Source: Streptomyces sp. A2-16 (GTDB lineage: Bacteria; Actinomycetota; Actinomycetes; Streptomycetales; Streptomycetaceae). Taken from it: DNA of 64,000 bases. A program made the position numbers and the translations under genes. The DNA lies in contig NZ_CP063808.1 in assembly GCF_018128905.1 (NCBI RefSeq), forward strand, positions 6,448,001 to 6,512,000, given 5' to 3'. The notes below the pieces were generated by a model. It was not told the origin of the DNA. It worked only from the letters and a program-made list of their open reading frames with translations, and searched no databases. Shown piece after piece: positions 7,873 to 17,567 of the stretch (position 1 is its first letter; each line of letters begins with the position of its first letter).

Positions 7873-8574
7873 TCACCGTGCGGGTCGGTTCTCCGGCTCG
7901 GGCTGCTCCAGCTGTGAGGCCAGGACCGCGGCCTGGACGCGGCGCTGCACGCCGAGTTTGGCCAGCAGCCGGGAGATGTGGTTCTTGACCGTCTTCTCGG
8001 ACAGGTAGAGCTTCTTGCCGATCTCGCGGTTGGTCAGACCGTCGCCGATGAGGGCGAGGATGTCCCGCTCACGAGGGGACAGGCTCGCGAGTTCCGGCGC
8101 GATGGTCGGCGTCTCGGCCGGGTCGGCGCGCAGCGAGCGCATGAGACGGGCCGTGGTCGCGGGGTCCAGCATGGACTGGCCGGATGCGACCGTACGGACC
8201 GCCGAGACCAGGTCGGATCCCCTGATCTGCTTGAGGACATAGCCGGAGGCCCCGGCCATGATGGCGTCGAGCAGGGCGTCCTCGTCGTCGAAGGACGTCA
8301 GCATCAGACAGGCCAGCTCCGGCATCTGGCTGCGCAGTTCGCGGCAGACGGTGATGCCGTCGCCGTCCGGGAGACGTACGTCGAGCACGGCCACGTGGGG
8401 GCGCAGCGCCGGGCCGCGGACCAGGGCGTGCTCGACGGTGCCGGCGTCGCCGACCACGGAGATGTCCGGTTCGGCGTCGAGCAGGTCGGTCAGGCCCCGT
8501 CGTACGACCTCGTGGTCGTCCAGCAGGAAGACACGGATCGGGTGGTCTTCCGTGAAGGTGCCTGGCTCGGTCAT
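7873..8574 (-). CDS. NarL/DevR-type response regulator (OsdR-like)
   Basis: 233 residues. The receiver domain (about 13-130) has the acidic pair LLDDHE, the predicted phospho-acceptor Asp65 in VAVLDVRLPDGDG, and the conserved Lys in YVLKQI. A LuxR-type helix-turn-helix (about 160-225) contains LSPRERDILALIGDGLTNREIGKKLYLSEKTVKNH, written here only as a landmark. The family includes DevR/DosR of Mycobacterium and OsdR of Streptomyces, which control hypoxia and dormancy genes. A perfect palindrome at 8656-8669 lies 82 bp upstream, suggesting autoregulation. The likely partner kinase is at 15348-17078, in the same island. Confidence 0.92.
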   Translation of the reverse strand: MTEPGTFTEDHPIRVFLLDDHEVVRRGLTDLLDAEPDISVVGDAGTVEHALVRGPALRPHVAVLDVRLPDGDGITVCRELRSQMPELACLMLTSFDDEDALLDAIMAGASGYVLKQIRGSDLVSAVRTVASGQSMLDPATTARLMRSLRADPAETPTIAPELASLSPRERDILALIGDGLTNREIGKKLYLSEKTVKNHISRLLAKLGVQRRVQAAVLASQLEQPEPENRPAR

Positions 8575-8640: not shown

Positions 8641-8669
8641 GGGCCGAATGCACTAGGGCCGACCGGCCC
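8641..8669. promoter_or_regulatory. DevR/OsdR-type operator upstream of the response regulator
   Basis: GGGCCGACCGGCCC at 8656-8669 is a perfect inverted repeat with a 2-bp centre, extending to a 20-bp palindrome CTAGGGCCGACCGGCCCTAG. It keeps the GGG-N-C-N4-G-N-CCC spacing of the mycobacterial DosR box. A second, degenerate copy (GGGCCGAATG) starts at 8641, 15 bp away, giving the tandem layout common at DevR promoters. It lies 82 bp upstream of the response-regulator start. Identical half-sites recur at 10661 and 11219. The binding protein is inferred. Confidence 0.6.
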
Positions 8670-8796
8670 TAGGTGCGCCGGGGGGCCGGGCGCTCGCGGC
8701 ATGCCCGTGCGGATGATGCAGAGCCGGTCGGCCCGGCTCCCCTCCCCTCGCACAGCCGCACCCCTTGCGGGAAGGAGACCTCACGGGCGACGCGCA

Positions 8797-10569
8797 TCAG
8801 CCGCTCCCGTCGTCGTCGGCGTCGGCCCGTGGGCCACTCGGTCCTGGGGACCTGCCGCTCGGCTCCTGCGCGCGCTGTCCCGGCTCCGTGTCCGGTCCGG
8901 CGCGGTACGCGGCCACCGCGGTGGGCAGCGTCGGGAAGATCAGTTCCGAGCCCACGGAGTCCGTGAGGCCGTATGCCCGCAGGTCGTCCAGGAGGTCCTG
9001 CTTGACCCGGGCGAGGGCGAACACCACGCCACGGCGGCCCAGTTCGCGGCGGAGGTCGTCGACGGCGTCGAGGGCGGTGATGTCGACCTCGACATTGGCC
9101 TCGGCGTTGAGGACGAACCAGCGTACGGGGTCGCTCTGTTCGTCGACGGCGGCCAGGGCGCGGCGGCGGAAGTCCTCGGCGTTGGCGAAGAAGAGCGGGG
9201 AGTCGTAGCGGTAGACGAGCAGGCCCGGGATGGTGCGGGCGGCCGGGTAGTCGTCGACGTCGTGCATGCCGGCCAGGCCCGGCACCACGCCCTGGACCGC
9301 GTCGTGCGGCCGGGCCACCCGGCTCAGCAGCTCGGCCACCGACAGGCCGACGGCGACGAGCACGCCGTACAGGATGCCGAGGGCGAGGACCCCGGTCAGG
9401 CAGCCGAGCGCGAGGAGGAGTTCGCGGCGACGGAAGGAGGCGAGGCGGCGGAAGCCCGCGAGGTCGATCATGCGGACGGCGGCGTAGACGACGAGGGTGC
9501 CGAGGACGGCGGAAGGGGTGCGGGTGAGCAGGGGGCTGAGGAAGAGCAGGACGGCGAGCACCACGACCCCGGCGACCAGCGAGTACGCCTGGCTGCGGGC
9601 GCCCGCCGAGGAGGCGAGGGCGGTGCGGCTGGCGCTGCTGCTGACGGGGAAGCCGTGCAGGACGCCCGCGCCGAGGTTGGCGGCGCCGAGCGCCAGGAAC
9701 TCCTGGTTGGCGTCGAGCCGGGGGCCTTCGCCGTGGAACGCGCGCGCGGTGAGGATGAAGTCCGTGTACGCGACGATGAGCACGCCGAGGGCGGGCAGCA
9801 CGAGTTGCGGCAGCTCCGTCAGGTCGGGCAGGGCGAGGCCGGGCAGGCCCGAGGGGATCTCGCCGATCACCTTGATGCCGTACCGGTCGTCGAGGTCCAG
9901 GACGACCACGGCGGCGGTGGCGAGGACGAAGGCTGCCAGCGGGCCCGGGACGTACTTCGGGACGGCGAAGAGGAAGACGAGCACGGCGGCGGAGAGGATC
10001 ACGGTCGGCAGGTGGGCGTCGGGCAGGTGCCGGACGGAGGACCACAGTTGGGGGAAGAAGTCCGACCCGGTCGTCCGCACCCCGGTGAGCTTGGGCAGCT
10101 GGTCCACCATCATGATCAGCGCGACGCCGGCCAGGTAGCCGATCAGGACGGGGCGGGAGAACAGGTCCGCGAGGAAGCCCAGGCGCACCACCCGTGCCAC
10201 CAGGCACAGCAGTCCGACGGTGACCGCGAGGGTGGCGGCGAGAGTGGCGTAGCGGCCGGGGTGGCCGGCGGCGAGCGGGCCGACCACGGTGGCCGTCATC
10301 AGTGCGGTCGTGGACTCGGGGCCGACCGAGAGCAGGCGGGAGGAGCCCAGCAGCGCGTACAGGACGAGGGCGGGCAGGATCGTCCACAGTCCGGCGACCG
10401 GCGGGAGCCCGGCCACACCCGCGTACGCCATGACCTGCGGCACCAGGTACGCGGCCACCGTCACGCCGGCCAGCAGGTCGCCCCTGAGCCAACTGCGCCG
10501 GTAGGCGAGGAGGACGGCTGCCCCTGGCAGCAGGCGGCGCCACACCGGATCGTCCGAGCCCTGTCCCAT
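8797..10569 (-). CDS. SulP family anion transporter with STAS domain
   Basis: 590 residues. The N-terminal membrane domain (about 30-430) has roughly 12 hydrophobic segments, including the SulP signature region VAAYLVPQVMAYAGVAGLPPVAGLW and GPESTTALMTATVVGPLAAG. A C-terminal STAS domain (about 445-560) contains VLNAEANVEVDITALDAVDDL, where a Ser or Asp usually sits in the regulatory loop. Transports sulfate, bicarbonate or another anion across the cytoplasmic membrane; the substrate cannot be told from sequence. A DevR-like palindrome at 10661-10674 lies 92 bp upstream of the start, linking it to the stress island. Confidence 0.93.
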   Translation of the reverse strand: MGQGSDDPVWRRLLPGAAVLLAYRRSWLRGDLLAGVTVAAYLVPQVMAYAGVAGLPPVAGLWTILPALVLYALLGSSRLLSVGPESTTALMTATVVGPLAAGHPGRYATLAATLAVTVGLLCLVARVVRLGFLADLFSRPVLIGYLAGVALIMMVDQLPKLTGVRTTGSDFFPQLWSSVRHLPDAHLPTVILSAAVLVFLFAVPKYVPGPLAAFVLATAAVVVLDLDDRYGIKVIGEIPSGLPGLALPDLTELPQLVLPALGVLIVAYTDFILTARAFHGEGPRLDANQEFLALGAANLGAGVLHGFPVSSSASRTALASSAGARSQAYSLVAGVVVLAVLLFLSPLLTRTPSAVLGTLVVYAAVRMIDLAGFRRLASFRRRELLLALGCLTGVLALGILYGVLVAVGLSVAELLSRVARPHDAVQGVVPGLAGMHDVDDYPAARTIPGLLVYRYDSPLFFANAEDFRRRALAAVDEQSDPVRWFVLNAEANVEVDITALDAVDDLRRELGRRGVVFALARVKQDLLDDLRAYGLTDSVGSELIFPTLPTAVAAYRAGPDTEPGQRAQEPSGRSPGPSGPRADADDDGSG

Positions 10570-10660
10570 GAGCCACCCTCCTCAGTCGGCCCCATGATCC
10601 ACCGGCGGGCCCGGGTGCGCGAGTGCCGCGCGCCGAAGCCTCCAACCAGCCCTGCGATCA

Positions 10661-10674
10661 GGGCCGTTCGGCCC
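10661..10674. promoter_or_regulatory. DevR/OsdR-type operator upstream of the SulP gene
   Basis: GGGCCGTTCGGCCC, a perfect 6+6 inverted repeat with a 2-bp centre, lies 92 bp upstream of the SulP start. The half-sites are identical to those at 8656 and 11219. A partial copy (GTCGGCCCC) lies nearby at 10585. Confidence 0.6.
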
Positions 10675-10815
10675 CATGGCCGCCGACCTTCGGCACCCGG
10701 CGCGCACGACCGGATCCGAACAGAGTGAGAAGCGTCAAGCACCGACCGGATCCGCCCGAAGGGACGCCCAGATGGCCGCGCACGGACCGATGGCGGCCGT
10801 CCTCCCTCGCCGGGC

Positions 10816-11024: not shown

Positions 11025-11218
11025 CGGATCCCCTGCGGACCGTCATGGCGGCTCCGCAGCGGGCCGCCGGGGGACGTCGGCCGACTGGGCGAGGTCCTCG
11101 GTCTCTGCGGGCTCCGGGCCGGGCTCCCGCGCATCGGCCTGTTCAGCCGGCCGCGCCGGCCGCGGGAGGTGCGACGGGTCCCACAGGGGAAGCGGGCCCG
11201 CCGCACGATGACCGGCCC

Positions 11219-11232
11219 GGGCCGGTCGGCCC
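11219..11232. promoter_or_regulatory. DevR/OsdR-type operator upstream of the first USP gene
   Basis: GGGCCGGTCGGCCC is a perfect 6+6 inverted repeat with a 2-bp centre, 72 bp upstream of the USP start at 11304. It shares both half-sites with the palindromes at 8656 and 10661. Its right end overlaps the start of the hairpin at 11230. Confidence 0.6.
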
Positions 11233-11262
11233 ACGGCAGGGACCTACGCCCCCTGCCGTGGG
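11230..11262 (+). promoter_or_regulatory. Hairpin in the predicted USP leader
   Basis: CCCACGGCAGGG (11230-11241) and CCCTGCCGTGGG (11251-11262) form a perfect 12-bp stem with a 9-nt loop. It ends about 28 bp before the ribosome-binding site GGAGGTGGAG of the first USP. No U-run follows, so it is not a typical terminator. It may stabilise the mRNA or be a second protein-binding site. Confidence 0.5.
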
Positions 11263-11303: not shown

Positions 11304-12209
11304 ATGGCCCGTACCGTCATCGTCGGTCTCGACGGCTCGCGCGAGAGCCGGGCGGCGGCCGAGTGGGCGGCCCGCGAGGCACAGCTGCTGGGAGTTCCTC
11401 TGACGCTGGTCCACGTCTGGGAACCCGTACCGGAACCCATCGCGCAGGCGCCTCTCCTCGGCGCCGAGACCCAGCAGCACTGGACCGAACGGATTCCCCG
11501 GGAGGCCGCGGAGGGCGTGCGGCTGCGCCACCCGGGCCTCGACGTGAGCACCGAGCAACTGTCCGGCCGGCCCGCCGACGAGCTGTTGAGCGCGACGAAG
11601 GGCGCCGAGCTGCTTGTCCTCGGCTCGCGCGGGCTGAGCGGGATCGGCGGGTTCATGGTCGGCTCGGTCGGGCTCTCCGTCGTGGCGCACGCCGAGCGGC
11701 CCCTCGTCCTGGTACGCGCCGACCAGCAGGCCGCCGACGAGCACGAGACGGACCCCGCGGGCATCCCGTCCGCCGCGACCCCGTTCCGGCCCGTCGTGCT
11801 CGGCCTGGACATCGAGAGCCCGGACGAGGAACTGATCTCCTTCGCGTTCGCCGCAGCCGCCCGCCGCGGCACCTCCCTGCGGGTCGTGCACGGCTGGAAC
11901 CCGCCCCCGTACTACGCCTACGGCCTCGCCGCTGACCTCGAACTCCACGGTGAACTCGCCCGACGCGAGACCGCCGCGCTGGCCGAGGCGCTGGTCCCGT
12001 GGCGCAAGAGGTTCCCCGACGTCGAGGTCACCGAGGAGTCGCCGTACGGCACCCCCGGCAACCACCTCGTCGACGCCTCCCGCGAGGCCTCCCTGGTCGT
12101 GGTGGGCCGCCGGATCCGCCGCGGCGTGCTCGGTACCCACGTCGGGCCCGTCACCCACGCCGTCCTGCACCACTCCGTCGCCCCCGTCGCCGTAGTCCCG
12201 CACAACTGA
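11304..12209 (+). CDS. Universal stress protein, tandem-domain
   Basis: 301 residues from ATG 11304, preceded by a strong ribosome-binding site GGAGGTGGAG. Two UspA domains (about 1-145 and 160-300) are fused. The first has the ATP-binding pattern G-2X-G-9X-G(S/T) in GSRGLSGIGGFMVGSVG, and the second has the related VVGRRIRRGVLGTHVG. Cytoplasmic proteins of this class accumulate in hypoxia, stasis or energy stress. It is the first gene of a + strand run with alcohol dehydrogenase and a second USP, and a DevR-like palindrome lies upstream. Confidence 0.94.
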   Translation: MARTVIVGLDGSRESRAAAEWAAREAQLLGVPLTLVHVWEPVPEPIAQAPLLGAETQQHWTERIPREAAEGVRLRHPGLDVSTEQLSGRPADELLSATKGAELLVLGSRGLSGIGGFMVGSVGLSVVAHAERPLVLVRADQQAADEHETDPAGIPSAATPFRPVVLGLDIESPDEELISFAFAAAARRGTSLRVVHGWNPPPYYAYGLAADLELHGELARRETAALAEALVPWRKRFPDVEVTEESPYGTPGNHLVDASREASLVVVGRRIRRGVLGTHVGPVTHAVLHHSVAPVAVVPHN

Positions 12210-12234
12210 CCTGAGAAATTTGAGGAGTTGCACC

Positions 12235-13257
12235 ATGAAGGCAGCGGTCGTACGAGCCTTCGGCGAGCCCCTGGTCATCGAGGAGCGCCCCGACCCCGAG
12301 CCCGGCCCCGGCCAGGTCCGCATCCGTGTCGAGGCCTCCGGGCTCTGCCACACCGACATCCACGCCGCCCGCGGGGACTGGCCCGTCAAGCCCGCCCCGC
12401 CCTTCGTCCCGGGCCATGAGGGCGTCGGCCTCGTCGAGGAACTCGGCGCCGGGGTCACCCACCTCTCCCTCGGGCAGCGGGTCGCCGTGCCCTGGCTGGG
12501 CAAGGCCTGCGGGCGGTGCGAGCACTGCCTGTCCGGCTGGGAGACGCTGTGCGAGCGGCAGATCAACACCGGTTACGGCTGCGACGGCGGTTACGCCGAG
12601 AAGATGCTGGCCTGGGCCGACTTCGCCCAGCCGGTGCCGCAGGGCGTGAGCGCCGTCGACGCCGCCCCGCTGACCTGCGCCGGCGTGACCACCTACAAGG
12701 CCCTCAAGGTCGCCGATGTGCGGCCGACCCAGCTCGTGGCGATCTCCGGGATCGGCGGGCTCGGTCATCTGGCCGTGCAGTACGCGAAGATCGCCGGAGC
12801 CCGGGTGGCCGCGATCGACGTCACCGACGAGAAGCTCGAACTCGCCGCCGAACTCGGCGCGGACTTCGTCATCGACGCCCGCAAGCACGACGTGGGCGAG
12901 GTCCTCAAGGGATACGGCGGAGCGCACGCGGCGATCGCCCTTGCGGTGAACGAGGACGCCTTCGCCGCCGTCAACTCGGGGCTGCGGCGCGGCGGAAAGC
13001 TCGTCATGGTCGCCCTGCCCGCGCACGGCACGGTCCAGGTCCCGATCTTCGACACCGTCCTGAACGGCACGAGCGTCATCGGCTCGATCGTCGGCACCCG
13101 GCAGGACCTCGCCGAGGTCTTCCAGCTGCACGCGGCGGGCCGGACCCGGGTGATCTCCGAGACCCGCCCGCTAGCCTCCGTCAACGAGTCCATCGAGGAC
13201 GTGCTGCGCGGCCAGGTCAGGGCCCGGATCGTCTTCGATCTCGGTGCGGGGCGGTGA
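12235..13257 (+). CDS. Zinc-dependent alcohol dehydrogenase (AdhP-like)
   Basis: 340 residues from ATG 12235, with GAGGAG as ribosome-binding site. Catalytic zinc ligands are visible in SGLCHTDIH and PGHEGVG. The structural zinc loop is CGRCEHC plus the later Cys of ETLCERQ. The Rossmann motif GIGGLGHLAVQYAK binds NAD(H). It interconverts primary alcohols and aldehydes and could regenerate NAD+ by fermentation when respiration is limited. It lies 25 bp after the first USP and almost abuts the second, so the three probably form one operon. Confidence 0.93.
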   Translation: MKAAVVRAFGEPLVIEERPDPEPGPGQVRIRVEASGLCHTDIHAARGDWPVKPAPPFVPGHEGVGLVEELGAGVTHLSLGQRVAVPWLGKACGRCEHCLSGWETLCERQINTGYGCDGGYAEKMLAWADFAQPVPQGVSAVDAAPLTCAGVTTYKALKVADVRPTQLVAISGIGGLGHLAVQYAKIAGARVAAIDVTDEKLELAAELGADFVIDARKHDVGEVLKGYGGAHAAIALAVNEDAFAAVNSGLRRGGKLVMVALPAHGTVQVPIFDTVLNGTSVIGSIVGTRQDLAEVFQLHAAGRTRVISETRPLASVNESIEDVLRGQVRARIVFDLGAGR

Positions 13258-13262
13258 GCGCG

Positions 13263-14129
13263 ATGTCGATGGATCTTCCGGTCGTCGTCGGTGTCGACGG
13301 CTCCGAGCCGAGCCTGCGGGCCGTGGACTGGGCGTCCGACGAGGCGGCCCTGCGCGGACTGCCGCTGCGGATCGTCAACGCCTGCCTGTGGGAACGCTAC
13401 GAGGGCGCCGCTCTCGCCCATGATCTCGGCAAGCCCTCCGAGCGGGTGCTGCCGCAGGACGTCGTCCAGGACGCCGTCCGGCGGGCCGGCGCTCGCCACC
13501 CCGACCTGAAGGTGACCTCGGAGGTGGTCTTCGAGGAACCCGAGTACGCGCTGGTCCGTGAGAGCCGCAACGCCTCCGCGCTGGTGACCGGCACCCGCGG
13601 CCGCGGTGGCATGACCGAGGCGCTGCTGGGTTCCGTGAGCCTGACGGTGGCAGGGCACGCGCACTGCCCGGTGATCATCGTGCGGGGCAGCCACGACAAC
13701 CAGGCCAGGGCGGGGCGGCACGGCCGCATCGTCGTGGGGGTCGGCGGGCCGACGACGCTGGGCTTCGCCTTCGAGGAGGCGGCGCGGCGCAACGTGCCGG
13801 TGGAGGCGATACGGGCCTGGCGGTGCCCGGCGCACGAGAGCACCGACCATCCTCTGCTGGCCGGGGAGCCCGCCCGGCTGCACGAGCAGCAGGCGGTCGA
13901 CGCGCTGGAGGCGGCACTCCAGGACGCGCCCGCGGCCGCCGAACTGCACCGCCGTACCGTCGAGGGCCCCGCCGGGTCGGTGCTGGTCGCCGCCTCGCAC
14001 CACGCCGACCTCCTGGTCGTGGGCGCCAGGCGCCGCCCCCGCCACTTCGGGCTGCAGCTGGGCCGGGTGGCCCACCGGGTGCTGCACCACTCCGCCTGCC
14101 CGGTCGCGATCGTGCCCGAGCAGGGATGA
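13263..14129 (+). CDS. Universal stress protein, tandem-domain
   Basis: 288 residues from ATG 13263. ATG 13269 and GTG 13254 are also possible; the GTG would overlap the dehydrogenase stop as GTGA. Two UspA domains are present: VVVGVDGSEPS opens the first, which has the nucleotide loop GTRGRGGMTEALLGSVS. The second ends with LVVGARRRPRHFGLQLGRV and VLHHSACPVAIVP. Third gene of the USP-ADH-USP operon. It converges on the PPK2 gene 10 bp away. Confidence 0.93.
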   Translation: MSMDLPVVVGVDGSEPSLRAVDWASDEAALRGLPLRIVNACLWERYEGAALAHDLGKPSERVLPQDVVQDAVRRAGARHPDLKVTSEVVFEEPEYALVRESRNASALVTGTRGRGGMTEALLGSVSLTVAGHAHCPVIIVRGSHDNQARAGRHGRIVVGVGGPTTLGFAFEEAARRNVPVEAIRAWRCPAHESTDHPLLAGEPARLHEQQAVDALEAALQDAPAAAELHRRTVEGPAGSVLVAASHHADLLVVGARRRPRHFGLQLGRVAHRVLHHSACPVAIVPEQG

Positions 14130-14139
14130 CCGGCTGGGC

Positions 14140-14943
14140 TCACAGAGTCGCCGCGTGGTCGGGGACGTAGGTCTGCAGATCACGCGGCGAGCGCTCGTAG
14201 CCCGTCGACCTCGGGCGCTCGGGCAGTTCGAGGACGGGCGGGGGGACCTCGCGGTACGGCACGGAGCCGAGCAGGTGGGCGATCATGTTGAGGCGGGCAC
14301 GGCGCTTGTCGTCGCTCTCCACGACGAACCACGGAGCCTCGGAGATGTCGGTGTGCACCAGCATCTCGTCCTTGGCCCGTGAGTACGCCTCCCAGTGAGT
14401 GATCGACTCCAGGTCCATCGGTGAGAGCTTCCAGCGCCGCAGCGGGTCCTCCAGGCGCTTTCTGAACCGCTCCTGCTGCTCGGTGTCGCTCACCGAGAAC
14501 CAGTACTTGCGCAGCACGATCCCGGCCTCGGTGAGCATGCGCTCGAAGATCGGGCACTGGCGCAGGAACAGCTGGTGCTCCTCCTTGGTGCAGAAACCCA
14601 TCACGTGCTCGACGCCGGCCCGGTTGTACCAGGACCGGTCGAACAGCACGATCTCGCCGGCCGCCGGCAGGTGCTCGACGTACCGCTGGAAGTACCACTG
14701 GGTGCGCTCGCGCTCGGTCGGTTTCGGCAGCGCCGCGATCCGGGCGACACGGGGGTTGAGGTGCTCGGCGACCCGCTTGATGGTGCCGCCCTTGCCCGCC
14801 GCGTCCCGGCCCTCGAAGACCACGACGAGCCGGACGCCCTCCGCGCGCACCCACTCCTGGAGTTTCACCAACTCCGTCTGAAGGCGCAGCAGTTCCTTCT
14901 CGTACACCTTGCGCGACAGCGTCTCCGCGCCCTTCCCGGCCAT
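14140..14943 (-). CDS. ppk2: Polyphosphate kinase 2 (PPK2)
   Basis: 267 residues from ATG 14943, with GGTGGAGGC as ribosome-binding site. Walker A is EGRDAAGKGGTIKR and Walker B is VLFDRSWYNRAGVE, both diagnostic of PPK2. A lid segment follows (FRKRLEDPLRRWKLSPMDL). The enzyme transfers phosphate between polyphosphate and nucleotides, commonly making GTP or ATP from polyphosphate; the class (I or III) is not settled by sequence reading alone. It is divergent from the histidine kinase across about 400 bp, and an energy role fits the surrounding stress genes. Confidence 0.95.
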   Translation of the reverse strand: MAGKGAETLSRKVYEKELLRLQTELVKLQEWVRAEGVRLVVVFEGRDAAGKGGTIKRVAEHLNPRVARIAALPKPTERERTQWYFQRYVEHLPAAGEIVLFDRSWYNRAGVEHVMGFCTKEEHQLFLRQCPIFERMLTEAGIVLRKYWFSVSDTEQQERFRKRLEDPLRRWKLSPMDLESITHWEAYSRAKDEMLVHTDISEAPWFVVESDDKRRARLNMIAHLLGSVPYREVPPPVLELPERPRSTGYERSPRDLQTYVPDHAATL

Positions 14944-15347: not shown

Positions 15348-17078
15348 GTGGCAAGCCCCGAGGAGCCCCGAGAGGCGCGTGTACCGCTGCCGCAGCTGAG
15401 GCTGGACGAGCTCCTGGAGGAACTGCAGGCGCGGCTGGACGCGGCCCGCAGCACCCGGGACCGGGTGCACAGCCTCCTGGAGGCCGTGCTCTCGGTCGGC
15501 CGGGAGCTGGACCTGGAGCAGGCCCTGCACAGCATCGTCGAGGCGGCCGCCGCCCTGGTGGACGCCCAGTACGCGGCCCTGGGCGTGATCGGCCCCGACG
15601 GCAGGAGGCTCTCCGCCTTCCACACCGTCGGCGTCACCGACGAACAGATCGCCGGGATCGGCCCCTACCCGGAGGGCCACGGCATCCTCGGCGAACTCAT
15701 CCGCCACCCCACACCCCTGCGGCTCACGAAGCTCTCCGAGCACCAGGCGTCCTACGGCTTCCCCCCGAACCATCCCCCGATGAACACCTTCCTCGGCGTC
15801 CCGATCCGGGTGCGCGACCAGGTCTTCGGCAACCTCTACCTCACCGAGAAACGGAACGGCGCGCAGTTCGACGAGGAGGACGAGGCCGTGCTGTCCACAC
15901 TGGCGGTGGCCGCCGGTGTCGCCATCGACAACGCCCGCCTCTACGAGGACTCCCGACTGCGCGAACGCTGGCTGCAGGCCAACGCCGAGATCACCCACCG
16001 GCTCATGTCCGGCGGCGACCGCGCGAAGGTGCTCGCCCTGATCGCCGAGCGGGCCGGCGAGATCACCGGTTCGGCGTTGACGGCGGTCGCGCTGCCCATG
16101 CCGGGCAGCGGCTCGCTCTCGGTGGAGATCGCCGTCGGACTCGACGCCGAGCGGCACCGGGGGCTCGTCCTGCCCGTGGAGTCGACCTTGATGGGGCTGG
16201 CCTTCTCGAGCGCGGCCCCTGCGGTCAGCGCGGACGTCCGCCACGATGAACGGATATCCCCCGAGCCGCCCCGCTTCCAGGGCCTCGGGCCCGCCGTGGC
16301 CGTGCCCATCGGCACGAGCGAGGGCGGGGTCCGCGGTGTCCTCCTGCTGGCCCGGGAGGCGGGCCGGCCGGAGTTCTCGGCGACCGAGACGGAGACCCTC
16401 CAGGCCTTCGCCGCGCAGGCCGCCGTCGCGATGGAACTGGCCGAGCGGCGCCGGGACGCCGAGCAGATCGCCGTGCTCAAGGACCGCGACCGGATCGCCC
16501 GCGATCTGCACGACCTCGCGATCCAGCGGCTCTTCGCCACCGGCATGACCCTGCAGAGCGCGGGCCGGTTCATCGAGCACGCCGAGGCCGCCGAGCGGGT
16601 CGGGCGCGCGGTGGACGACCTCGACGAGACCATCAAGATCATCAGGTCGACGATCTTCGGCCTGCGTTCGCGCGAGGGCGCCGAGGAGGCCGGGCTGCGG
16701 GCGCGCGTGGTGCGGATCGCGGGCGAGGCGGCGCCGGTGCTGGGCTTCGCGCCCAGCGTGCGGATCGAGGGCCTGGTGGACACGGACGTGCCCCGGGAGA
16801 TCGCCGATCACGTGGTGGCCGTGCTGTCCGAGGCGCTCACCAACACCGCCCGGCACGCCCGGGCCGACCGTGCCGCCGTCGCCCTCACGGCCGACGCCCG
16901 CCGCATTCGTCTCACGGTCACCGACAACGGCGTCGGCATCCCTCCTGACGGCCGTCGCAGCGGGCTGCGCAACCTGGCGGAACGAGCCCATCAGCTGGGC
17001 GGGGAGCTGGAGTTGAGCCGCCCGGCCGACGGCGGCGCCACGCTGGTGTGGTCGGTCCCGCTGCCCGCGGAGCAGTAG
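15348..17078 (+). CDS. Double-GAF sensor histidine kinase (DevS/OsdK-like)
   Basis: 576 residues from GTG 15348, placed 7 bp after GGAGG; a GTG at 15315 would add 11 residues. GAF-A (about 50-195) contains NHPPMNTFLG and GNLYL. His142 and Tyr164 have the 22-residue spacing of the proximal haem His and distal Tyr of mycobacterial DevS. GAF-B spans about 225-365. The HisKA_3 box DRIARDLHDL carries the phospho-His388, and the HATPase_c domain (about 455-570) has TDNGVGIP. The length matches DevS. No membrane segment is seen. Probable cytoplasmic O2/redox sensor for the response regulator at 7873-8574. Confidence 0.93.
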   Translation: MASPEEPREARVPLPQLRLDELLEELQARLDAARSTRDRVHSLLEAVLSVGRELDLEQALHSIVEAAAALVDAQYAALGVIGPDGRRLSAFHTVGVTDEQIAGIGPYPEGHGILGELIRHPTPLRLTKLSEHQASYGFPPNHPPMNTFLGVPIRVRDQVFGNLYLTEKRNGAQFDEEDEAVLSTLAVAAGVAIDNARLYEDSRLRERWLQANAEITHRLMSGGDRAKVLALIAERAGEITGSALTAVALPMPGSGSLSVEIAVGLDAERHRGLVLPVESTLMGLAFSSAAPAVSADVRHDERISPEPPRFQGLGPAVAVPIGTSEGGVRGVLLLAREAGRPEFSATETETLQAFAAQAAVAMELAERRRDAEQIAVLKDRDRIARDLHDLAIQRLFATGMTLQSAGRFIEHAEAAERVGRAVDDLDETIKIIRSTIFGLRSREGAEEAGLRARVVRIAGEAAPVLGFAPSVRIEGLVDTDVPREIADHVVAVLSEALTNTARHARADRAAVALTADARRIRLTVTDNGVGIPPDGRRSGLRNLAERAHQLGGELELSRPADGGATLVWSVPLPAEQ

Positions 17079-17159: not shown

Positions 17160-17567
17160 GTGTACGGCGACCCAGCGACGATCCGCAAGATCCTCACCGA
17201 ACTCGGCGACACCTGGGCCGTCGTGGGCCTGTCGACGAACCGGCGGCGCGCGGCCTACGGCGTCGCCGAGGTGCTGCGGCGGTACGGCAAGCGGGTGGTG
17301 CCGGTCCACCCCAAGGCGGAGACCGTGCACGGCGAGCCGGGGTACGCCTCCCTCGCGGACATCCCCTTCGACGTCGACGTGGTCGACGTGTTCGTGAACA
17401 GCGACCTCGCCGGAGCGGTGGCCGACGAGGCGGTGGCGAAGGGCGCGAAGGCCGTCTGGTTCCAGCTGGACGTCATCGACGAGGCGGCCTACGACCGCAC
17501 CCGCGCAGCCGGCCTCGACATGGTCATGGACAGGTGCCCGGCAATCGAGATCCCCCGCCTGCCCTGA
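17160..17567 (+). CDS. CoA-binding domain protein
   Basis: 135 residues from GTG 17160, with AGGAGG as ribosome-binding site. A single CoA_binding Rossmann domain starts TWAVVGLSTNRRRAAYGVAEVLRRYG, followed by a VVDVFVNSD strand and KAVWFQL. Members bind CoA or a nucleotide and often act as small cytosolic accessory proteins; no enzyme activity is assigned. CoA-binding proteins of this type occur among DevR-type stress genes in actinobacteria, which fits its place as the last gene of this island. Confidence 0.88.
   Translation: MYGDPATIRKILTELGDTWAVVGLSTNRRRAAYGVAEVLRRYGKRVVPVHPKAETVHGEPGYASLADIPFDVDVVDVFVNSDLAGAVADEAVAKGAKAVWFQLDVIDEAAYDRTRAAGLDMVMDRCPAIEIPRLP

Follow-up and report, generated by a model that had tools for sequence, protein, structure and literature searches.

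Haem-based O2/NO sensor kinases control dormancy in Mycobacterium tuberculosis, and a two-GAF histidine kinase resembling them is encoded in the 64,000-nucleotide stretch of Streptomyces sp. A2-16 DNA analyzed here (the window). Does its first GAF domain (GAF-A) sense a gas through haem, does it do so in the manner of DosT or of DevS, and why is the same sensor found in a second kinase of the genome?

Identification of the kinase

The open reading frame and its parts have the following positions in the window:

15348..17078, plus strand, OsdK/DevS/DosT-type sensor histidine kinase of 576 aa (ORF translation, domain search, phmmer)
15315, plus strand, in-frame GTG, an alternative start of the same reading frame
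15507..15956, plus strand, GAF-A domain, residues 54-203, with the predicted haem pocket (phmmer to 2vzw/2w3d; AlphaFold model)
16017..16484, plus strand, GAF-B domain, about residues 224-379, resembling M. smegmatis DevS GAF-B 2vjw (phmmer, domain search)
16485..17066, plus strand, HisKA_3 and HATPase_c transmitter
16509-16511, plus strand, codon of His388, the phospho-acceptor of the transmitter (domain search, alignment of Streptomyces kinases)

The domain order (GAF-A, GAF-B, HisKA_3, HATPase_c) is that of the DevS/DosT/OsdK haem-GAF sensor kinases. Among solved structures, the top phmmer match of the kinase was the GAF-A of M. tuberculosis DosT (2vzw, E 8.8e-48), followed by the GAF-A of DevS (2w3d and its mutants, E about 3e-43), with the DosT/DevS ATPase domains and M. 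smegmatis DevS GAF-B as lower-ranked matches. No NCBIfam equivalog had a cut-off that the kinase passed. Homologues with E < 1e-100 were present in 104 of the 121 Streptomyces genomes sampled. The gene encodes an OsdK-type soluble sensor histidine kinase of the DevS/DosT family, and the system itself has already been published in S. coelicolor.

The S. coelicolor orthologue is OsdK/DevS (SCO0203), with OsdR/DevR (SCO0204) (PMC5069765, PMC4766573). OsdK autophosphorylates and phosphorylates OsdR, and 15 of 18 O2-sensing residues of DosT are conserved in it; the OsdR regulon lies around SCO0167-SCO0219, the 16-nt box consensus is AGGGCCGATCGGCCCT, and the osdR site is at -81 (PMC5069765). Haem-based sensing has been proposed for OsdK (PMC9739842), and no haem spectroscopy of any Streptomyces OsdK was found in the literature searched. 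The A2-16 system likewise has a two-GAF kinase with DosT-like haem residues and a DevR-like regulator.

Conservation of the predicted haem ligand pair in GAF-A

Two residues of GAF-A correspond to the haem ligand pair of the mycobacterial proteins:

15771..15773, plus strand, His142 (NHPPM), predicted proximal haem ligand, equivalent to DevS His149 and DosT His147 (phmmer, alignment)
15837..15839, plus strand, Tyr164 (GNLYL), predicted distal ligand-sensing residue, equivalent to DevS Tyr171 and DosT Tyr169 (phmmer, alignment)

The original prediction, made from the letters alone, had placed the two residues in these motifs, 22 residues apart and spaced as His149 and Tyr171 of DevS are. Both codons were found there, and in the phmmer alignments the pair was in register with those of DevS and DosT, ungapped in between. 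It had also suggested a structure-based alignment to DevS/DosT as a check. The AlphaFold model of GAF-A (mean pLDDT 84.9, built from 62 sequences) matched DosT 2vzw best, with Z 24.0, 1.7 A over 146 residues and 56% identity; the DevS entries gave Z 23.0-23.6, and other GAF domains Z 18.6 or less. One detail of the prediction was mistaken: the position four residues past the ligand His, given there as His in DevS, holds Arg in both M. tuberculosis proteins and Asn in the window kinase. This position is not diagnostic, because it varies among relatives (N 56, R 26, H 21, T 5, S 2, D 1 and G 1 in 112 aligned Streptomyces kinases).

His142 and Tyr164 were each invariant in the same alignment (112/112), in which some genomes and some genes are represented twice, so that the independent genes are somewhat fewer. 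Within the A2-16 genome, both residues occurred in only three of the best 30 GAF_2 domains read: those of the window kinase, a paralogue 82% identical to it, and a 47% relative. One further domain among these 30 had the His with Phe at the Tyr position.

The best reading of GAF-A is a haem-based gas sensor, with haem binding predicted from sequence and model. It is favored because the identity to DosT GAF-A is about 56% over 146 residues with the ligand pair and the fold conserved, and because the pair is invariant across the genus and the neighborhood holds both a DevR-like regulator and operator boxes of the matching type (see below).

DosT-like rather than DevS-like residues

The haem-channel position was marked by alignment to the DevS mutant structures 2y8h (E87G) and 2y79 (E87A), and two residues of GAF-A speak to the subtype:

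15582..15584, plus strand, Gly79, haem-channel gate, as DosT Gly85 and unlike DevS Glu87 (phmmer, alignment, review PMC4082495)
15831..15833, plus strand, Asn162, the DosT-type residue, Thr169 in DevS (phmmer, alignment, review PMC4082495)

The gate residue is therefore the Gly of the DosT subtype and not the Glu of the DevS subtype. Gly was found at the gate in 111 of the 112 Streptomyces kinases and Asn at position 162 in all 112. DosT is thus the best match of the window GAF-A in sequence and in fold, sharing with it the proximal His, the distal Tyr, the gate Gly and the Asn before Leu-Tyr; it differs in that the GAF-A identity is only about 56%, in Arg for the +4 Asn, and in Arg where the window kinase has Ile81. 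DevS/DosS (2w3d) has the same ligand pair with identical spacing and a similar domain order, but carries Glu87 for Gly79, His89 for Ile81, Asp90 for Gly82 (Gly in DosT) and Thr169 for Asn162.

Substitutions at these positions have been studied in the mycobacterial proteins. DevS E87G or E87A forms a stable oxy complex and DosT G85E undergoes auto-oxidation. In M. smegmatis, DevS takes on DosT behavior when any of several single residues is changed to its DosT counterpart, E87G, D90G and T169N among them; both the part played by Glu87 and the rapid auto-oxidation of DevS are under dispute (PMC4082495). We favor a DosT-like O2/NO sensor as likelier than a DevS-like redox sensor, because Gly stands at the position of DevS Glu87 and Asn at that of DevS Thr169. 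The original prediction of a gas or redox sensor, rather than a generic GAF kinase, is supported by the ligand pair, the fold and the neighborhood, and Gly79 and Asn162 narrow it toward O2/NO and away from redox sensing.

A DevS-like redox sensor, in which O2 readily oxidizes the haem and the kinase responds to redox state and not to a bound gas, would share the domain architecture and the ligand pair seen here, and a redox role has been argued for DevS (reviewed in PMC4082495). This reading is improbable: Glu87, the proposed cause of auto-oxidation in DevS, is replaced by Gly in this kinase and in 111 of the 112 relatives, and the oxy complex of DevS E87G is stable (PMC4082495). Still less likely is a GAF-A that no longer carries haem and either detects a different small molecule or serves purely as a dimerization module. 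GAF domains bind many different ligands, and one relative in this genome (L012) is without the ligand His and Tyr, but the two residues were invariant in 112 kinases, some at only about 50% GAF-A identity, and the S. coelicolor orthologue responds to NO in vitro (PMC4766573).

Genomic neighborhood, regulator and predicted OsdR boxes

The genes and boxes around the haem-sensor candidate are as follows:

7873..8574, minus strand, NarL-family response regulator, OsdR-like, probable partner (nearest solved structure M. tuberculosis DevR 3c3w, E 1.1e-72)
8655..8670, no strand assigned, predicted OsdR/DevR box AGGGCCGACCGGCCCT, about 81 bp upstream of the regulator start (perfect core; consensus PMC5069765)
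8720..8735, no strand assigned, second OsdR-like box upstream of the regulator, weaker (3 mismatches)
8797..10569, minus strand, SulP-family transporter with STAS domain
10660..10675, no strand assigned, OsdR-like box about 91 bp upstream of the SulP gene
11218..11233, no strand assigned, OsdR-like box with 3 mismatches; the first universal stress protein gene starts about 80 bp downstream
11313..12209, plus strand, universal stress protein, tandem, first
12220..13257, plus strand, zinc-dependent alcohol dehydrogenase family protein
13266..14129, plus strand, universal stress protein, tandem, second
14140..14943, minus strand, polyphosphate kinase 2 (PPK2), divergent from the sensor kinase
17160..17567, plus strand, CoA-binding domain protein, downstream of the kinase

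The kinase sits in a dormancy-type cluster. An OsdR-like regulator with a predicted upstream OsdR box is present, as in the OsdK/OsdR system of Streptomyces; the 16-nt box at about -81 and the universal stress and alcohol dehydrogenase neighbors are further likenesses to S. coelicolor. The regulator, the SulP transporter and the first universal stress protein each have a predicted box (at 8655, 10660 and 11218, respectively) 80-95 bp before the start codon.

With up to 3 mismatches, the box AGGGCCGATCGGCCCT occurred six times in the window (1.55 expected), a number reached in 0 of 100 shuffles. The perfect core AGGGCCGNNCGGCCCT was found only twice in the 9.8-Mb genome, at 8655 of the window and at C1:5859139 in the cluster of the paralogue. 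Sites with up to one mismatch numbered 42 genome-wide compared to 36 in the backward control, so that the total is weak evidence; about a dozen of the 42 were concentrated in C1:5.858-5.901 Mb and the window. The case for the boxes accordingly rests on their clustering and positions.

In contrast to the osdR-osdK operon of S. coelicolor, the regulator and the kinase are 6.8 kb apart on opposite strands. An OsdR-like gene was present within 9 kb of the kinase in 35 of 80 named relatives, and directly upstream on the same strand in 12 of the 80. Since adjacency is not universal among relatives, the layout is a difference of arrangement and not a failure to meet a defining feature of the family. 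Given the distance, the opposite strand and the two close OsdR-like regulators of the genome, we infer the partnership of kinase and regulator only as probable.

The PPK2 gene may be functionally linked to the sensor kinase: in Microlunatus, the DevS-like system PolS-PolR binds promoters of polyphosphate metabolism (PMC6754071).

A sensor tract identical to that of a paralogue

The paralogous kinase, 82% identical, is encoded at C1:5855500-5857203 on the other strand, 606 kb away, within a second dormancy-like cluster that has its own OsdR-like regulator (82%; C1:5869346-5870035). Having two clusters, and a kinase pair with a converted sensor segment, sets Streptomyces sp. A2-16 apart from the S. 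coelicolor system. Nucleotide alignment of the two kinase genes identified one feature:

15386..16017, plus strand, 632-bp tract, 100% identical to the paralogue at C1:5855500-5857203

Residues 13 to 223 are encoded by the tract, which covers the N-terminal helix, the entire GAF-A and the linker and stops where GAF-B starts. Its edges at 15385 and 16018 are sharp, and outside it the genes differ at about 25% of sites. Four-fold sites were identical between the paralogues at 127/127 positions in the tract compared to 101/173 outside. The regulator and dehydrogenase pairs of the two clusters contained no identical run above 38 bp. The GAF-A four-fold identity of this pair was 1.00, compared to a maximum of 0.76 in 648 matched between-genome pairs, and the paralogues separated in the tree of GAF-B plus kinase.

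As judged from the two sequences, the identity across 15386-16017 stems from a gene conversion that recently copied the sensor module, because neither purifying selection nor whole-gene duplication can give the four-fold pattern. The two kinases of the genome consequently share one sensor sequence, whereas their GAF-B domains and transmitters have diverged. The copies being mutually inverted, a non-crossover conversion would have left the chromosome order intact. For the donor, AU tests gave p 0.35 for placement with the orthologues of the window kinase and p 0.29 for placement with the nearest rows of the paralogue, and neither placement was rejected.

An assembly artefact is a very unlikely source of the identity. 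Repeats may mislead assemblers, and the tract is known from the assembly alone; however, the flanks differ by about 25% and hence mark distinct loci, collapsed repeats would not turn plainly distinct sequences into identical ones, the main contig spans 9.77 Mb, and an independent, slightly decayed tract in another genome (G248; 97% nucleotide identity, four-fold 0.91) is not explicable in the same way. Strong purifying selection or a recent whole-gene duplication can be set aside, although GAF-A is the most conserved kinase part in most pairs, given the 127/127 against 101/173 four-fold sites with sharp edges, the separation of the genes in the GAF-B plus kinase tree and the ceiling of 0.76 in the 648 matched pairs.

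Sensor conversion in other Streptomyces kinase pairs

Gene conversion of the sensor was then considered across 59 within-genome kinase pairs from 43 genomes, 57 of them with enough controls; the controls, 6,389 in all, were between-genome pairs matched on identity in the rest of the gene. Three of the 57 pairs exceeded every matched control in GAF-A four-fold identity. Besides the A2-16 pair, these were the G248 pair (0.91, control maximum 0.76) and, marginally, a pair in G006 (0.80, control maximum 0.78). The two G248 kinases (L178 and L179, G248:C49:271685-279300) are 5.7 kb apart; their GAF-A is 100% identical in protein and 97% in DNA, compared to protein identities of 67% in GAF-B and 76% in the kinase part. 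Conversion of the sensor part has occurred independently at least twice, in this genome and in G248, with a weaker case in G006. Conversion as a rule in all species was rejected, most pairs being unremarkable.

The simplest cause is mechanical: gene conversion needs similarity, and nowhere are the paralogues more alike than in GAF-A. Equal gas tuning may have been selected for. We raise only tentatively, as a doubtful proposal, that conversion repeatedly homogenizes the haem-sensor module alone in paralogous Streptomyces OsdK proteins, keeping gas tuning identical while GAF-B and transmitters diverge so that each kinase acts on its own regulators or targets (one input, two outputs).

Concerted evolution in prokaryotes is generally known (PMC6053082, PMC4632066), and no earlier report of gene conversion in kinase sensor domains, of the OsdK/DevS/DosT family or otherwise, was found in the literature searched. 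What is new here is the sensor half copied base for base between otherwise well-diverged kinases of one genome. The converted tract poses the question of concerted evolution of sensor modules in paralogous kinases, and it is a natural domain swap, the same sensor with different transmitters in one cell, so that the contribution of GAF-B and transmitter to the gas response and to partner choice can be asked.

Proposed mechanism

We put a probability of about 0.86 on the explanation as a whole, that is, an OsdK-type kinase with a haem gas-sensing GAF-A, an OsdR-like partner and a sensor tract acquired by gene conversion. In GAF-A, His142 is most likely the residue that holds haem b; Tyr164 would touch the gas bound there, and Gly79, like its DosT equivalent, would leave access to the iron unobstructed. 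If the kinase works as DosT does, it would be silent while the ferrous haem carries O2 and become active once the O2 is lost; NO would act on the haem as well. The phosphate on His388 would pass to the OsdR-like regulator at 7873-8574, to the 82% paralogue of that regulator, or to both. The regulator would in turn bind the boxes lying 80-95 bp upstream of the genes for itself, the SulP transporter and a universal stress protein. The N-terminal helix, GAF-A and linker segment was copied recently between this kinase gene and its paralogue.

NO lowers the autophosphorylation of S. coelicolor DevS (PMC4766573), whereas the mycobacterial proteins are active in the NO-bound state (PMC4082495). Because the S. 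coelicolor and M. tuberculosis proteins respond to NO in opposite directions, the polarity of the kinase is not simply transferable. The kinase extends a known family, and the prediction that follows is that Streptomyces OsdK proteins are uniformly DosT-like gas sensors with a Gly gate.

Other kinases and loci

The region C1:5858498-5901263 around the paralogue carries about 10 OsdR-box-like sites within 43 kb, together with genes for a transhydrogenase, an aldehyde dehydrogenase, GAPDH and universal stress proteins, and is probably the main dormancy island of the genome. Two short OsdK-like gene fragments at C1:4990138-4990448, one with a stop codon, represent a decayed copy. The haem-less candidate mentioned above (L012, C1:7986284-7987606) is a DevS-like kinase with GAF-B and transmitter, whose GAF-A is without the ligand-His segment and has Leu for the Tyr; it is probably a haem-less relative.

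An OsdK-like kinase of another Streptomyces genome (L085, G103:C1:10386501-10388485) has an extra segment near residue 306-310 in a 630-aa open frame. A 400-aa single-GAF HisKA_3 kinase at C1:7105890-7107011 (L002, L013), adjoined by a NarL-type regulator at C1:7105271-7105879, keeps the ligand His (AHPDM) and the Gly gate but carries Phe (GALFL) in place of the distal Tyr, a natural counterpart of DevS Y171F.
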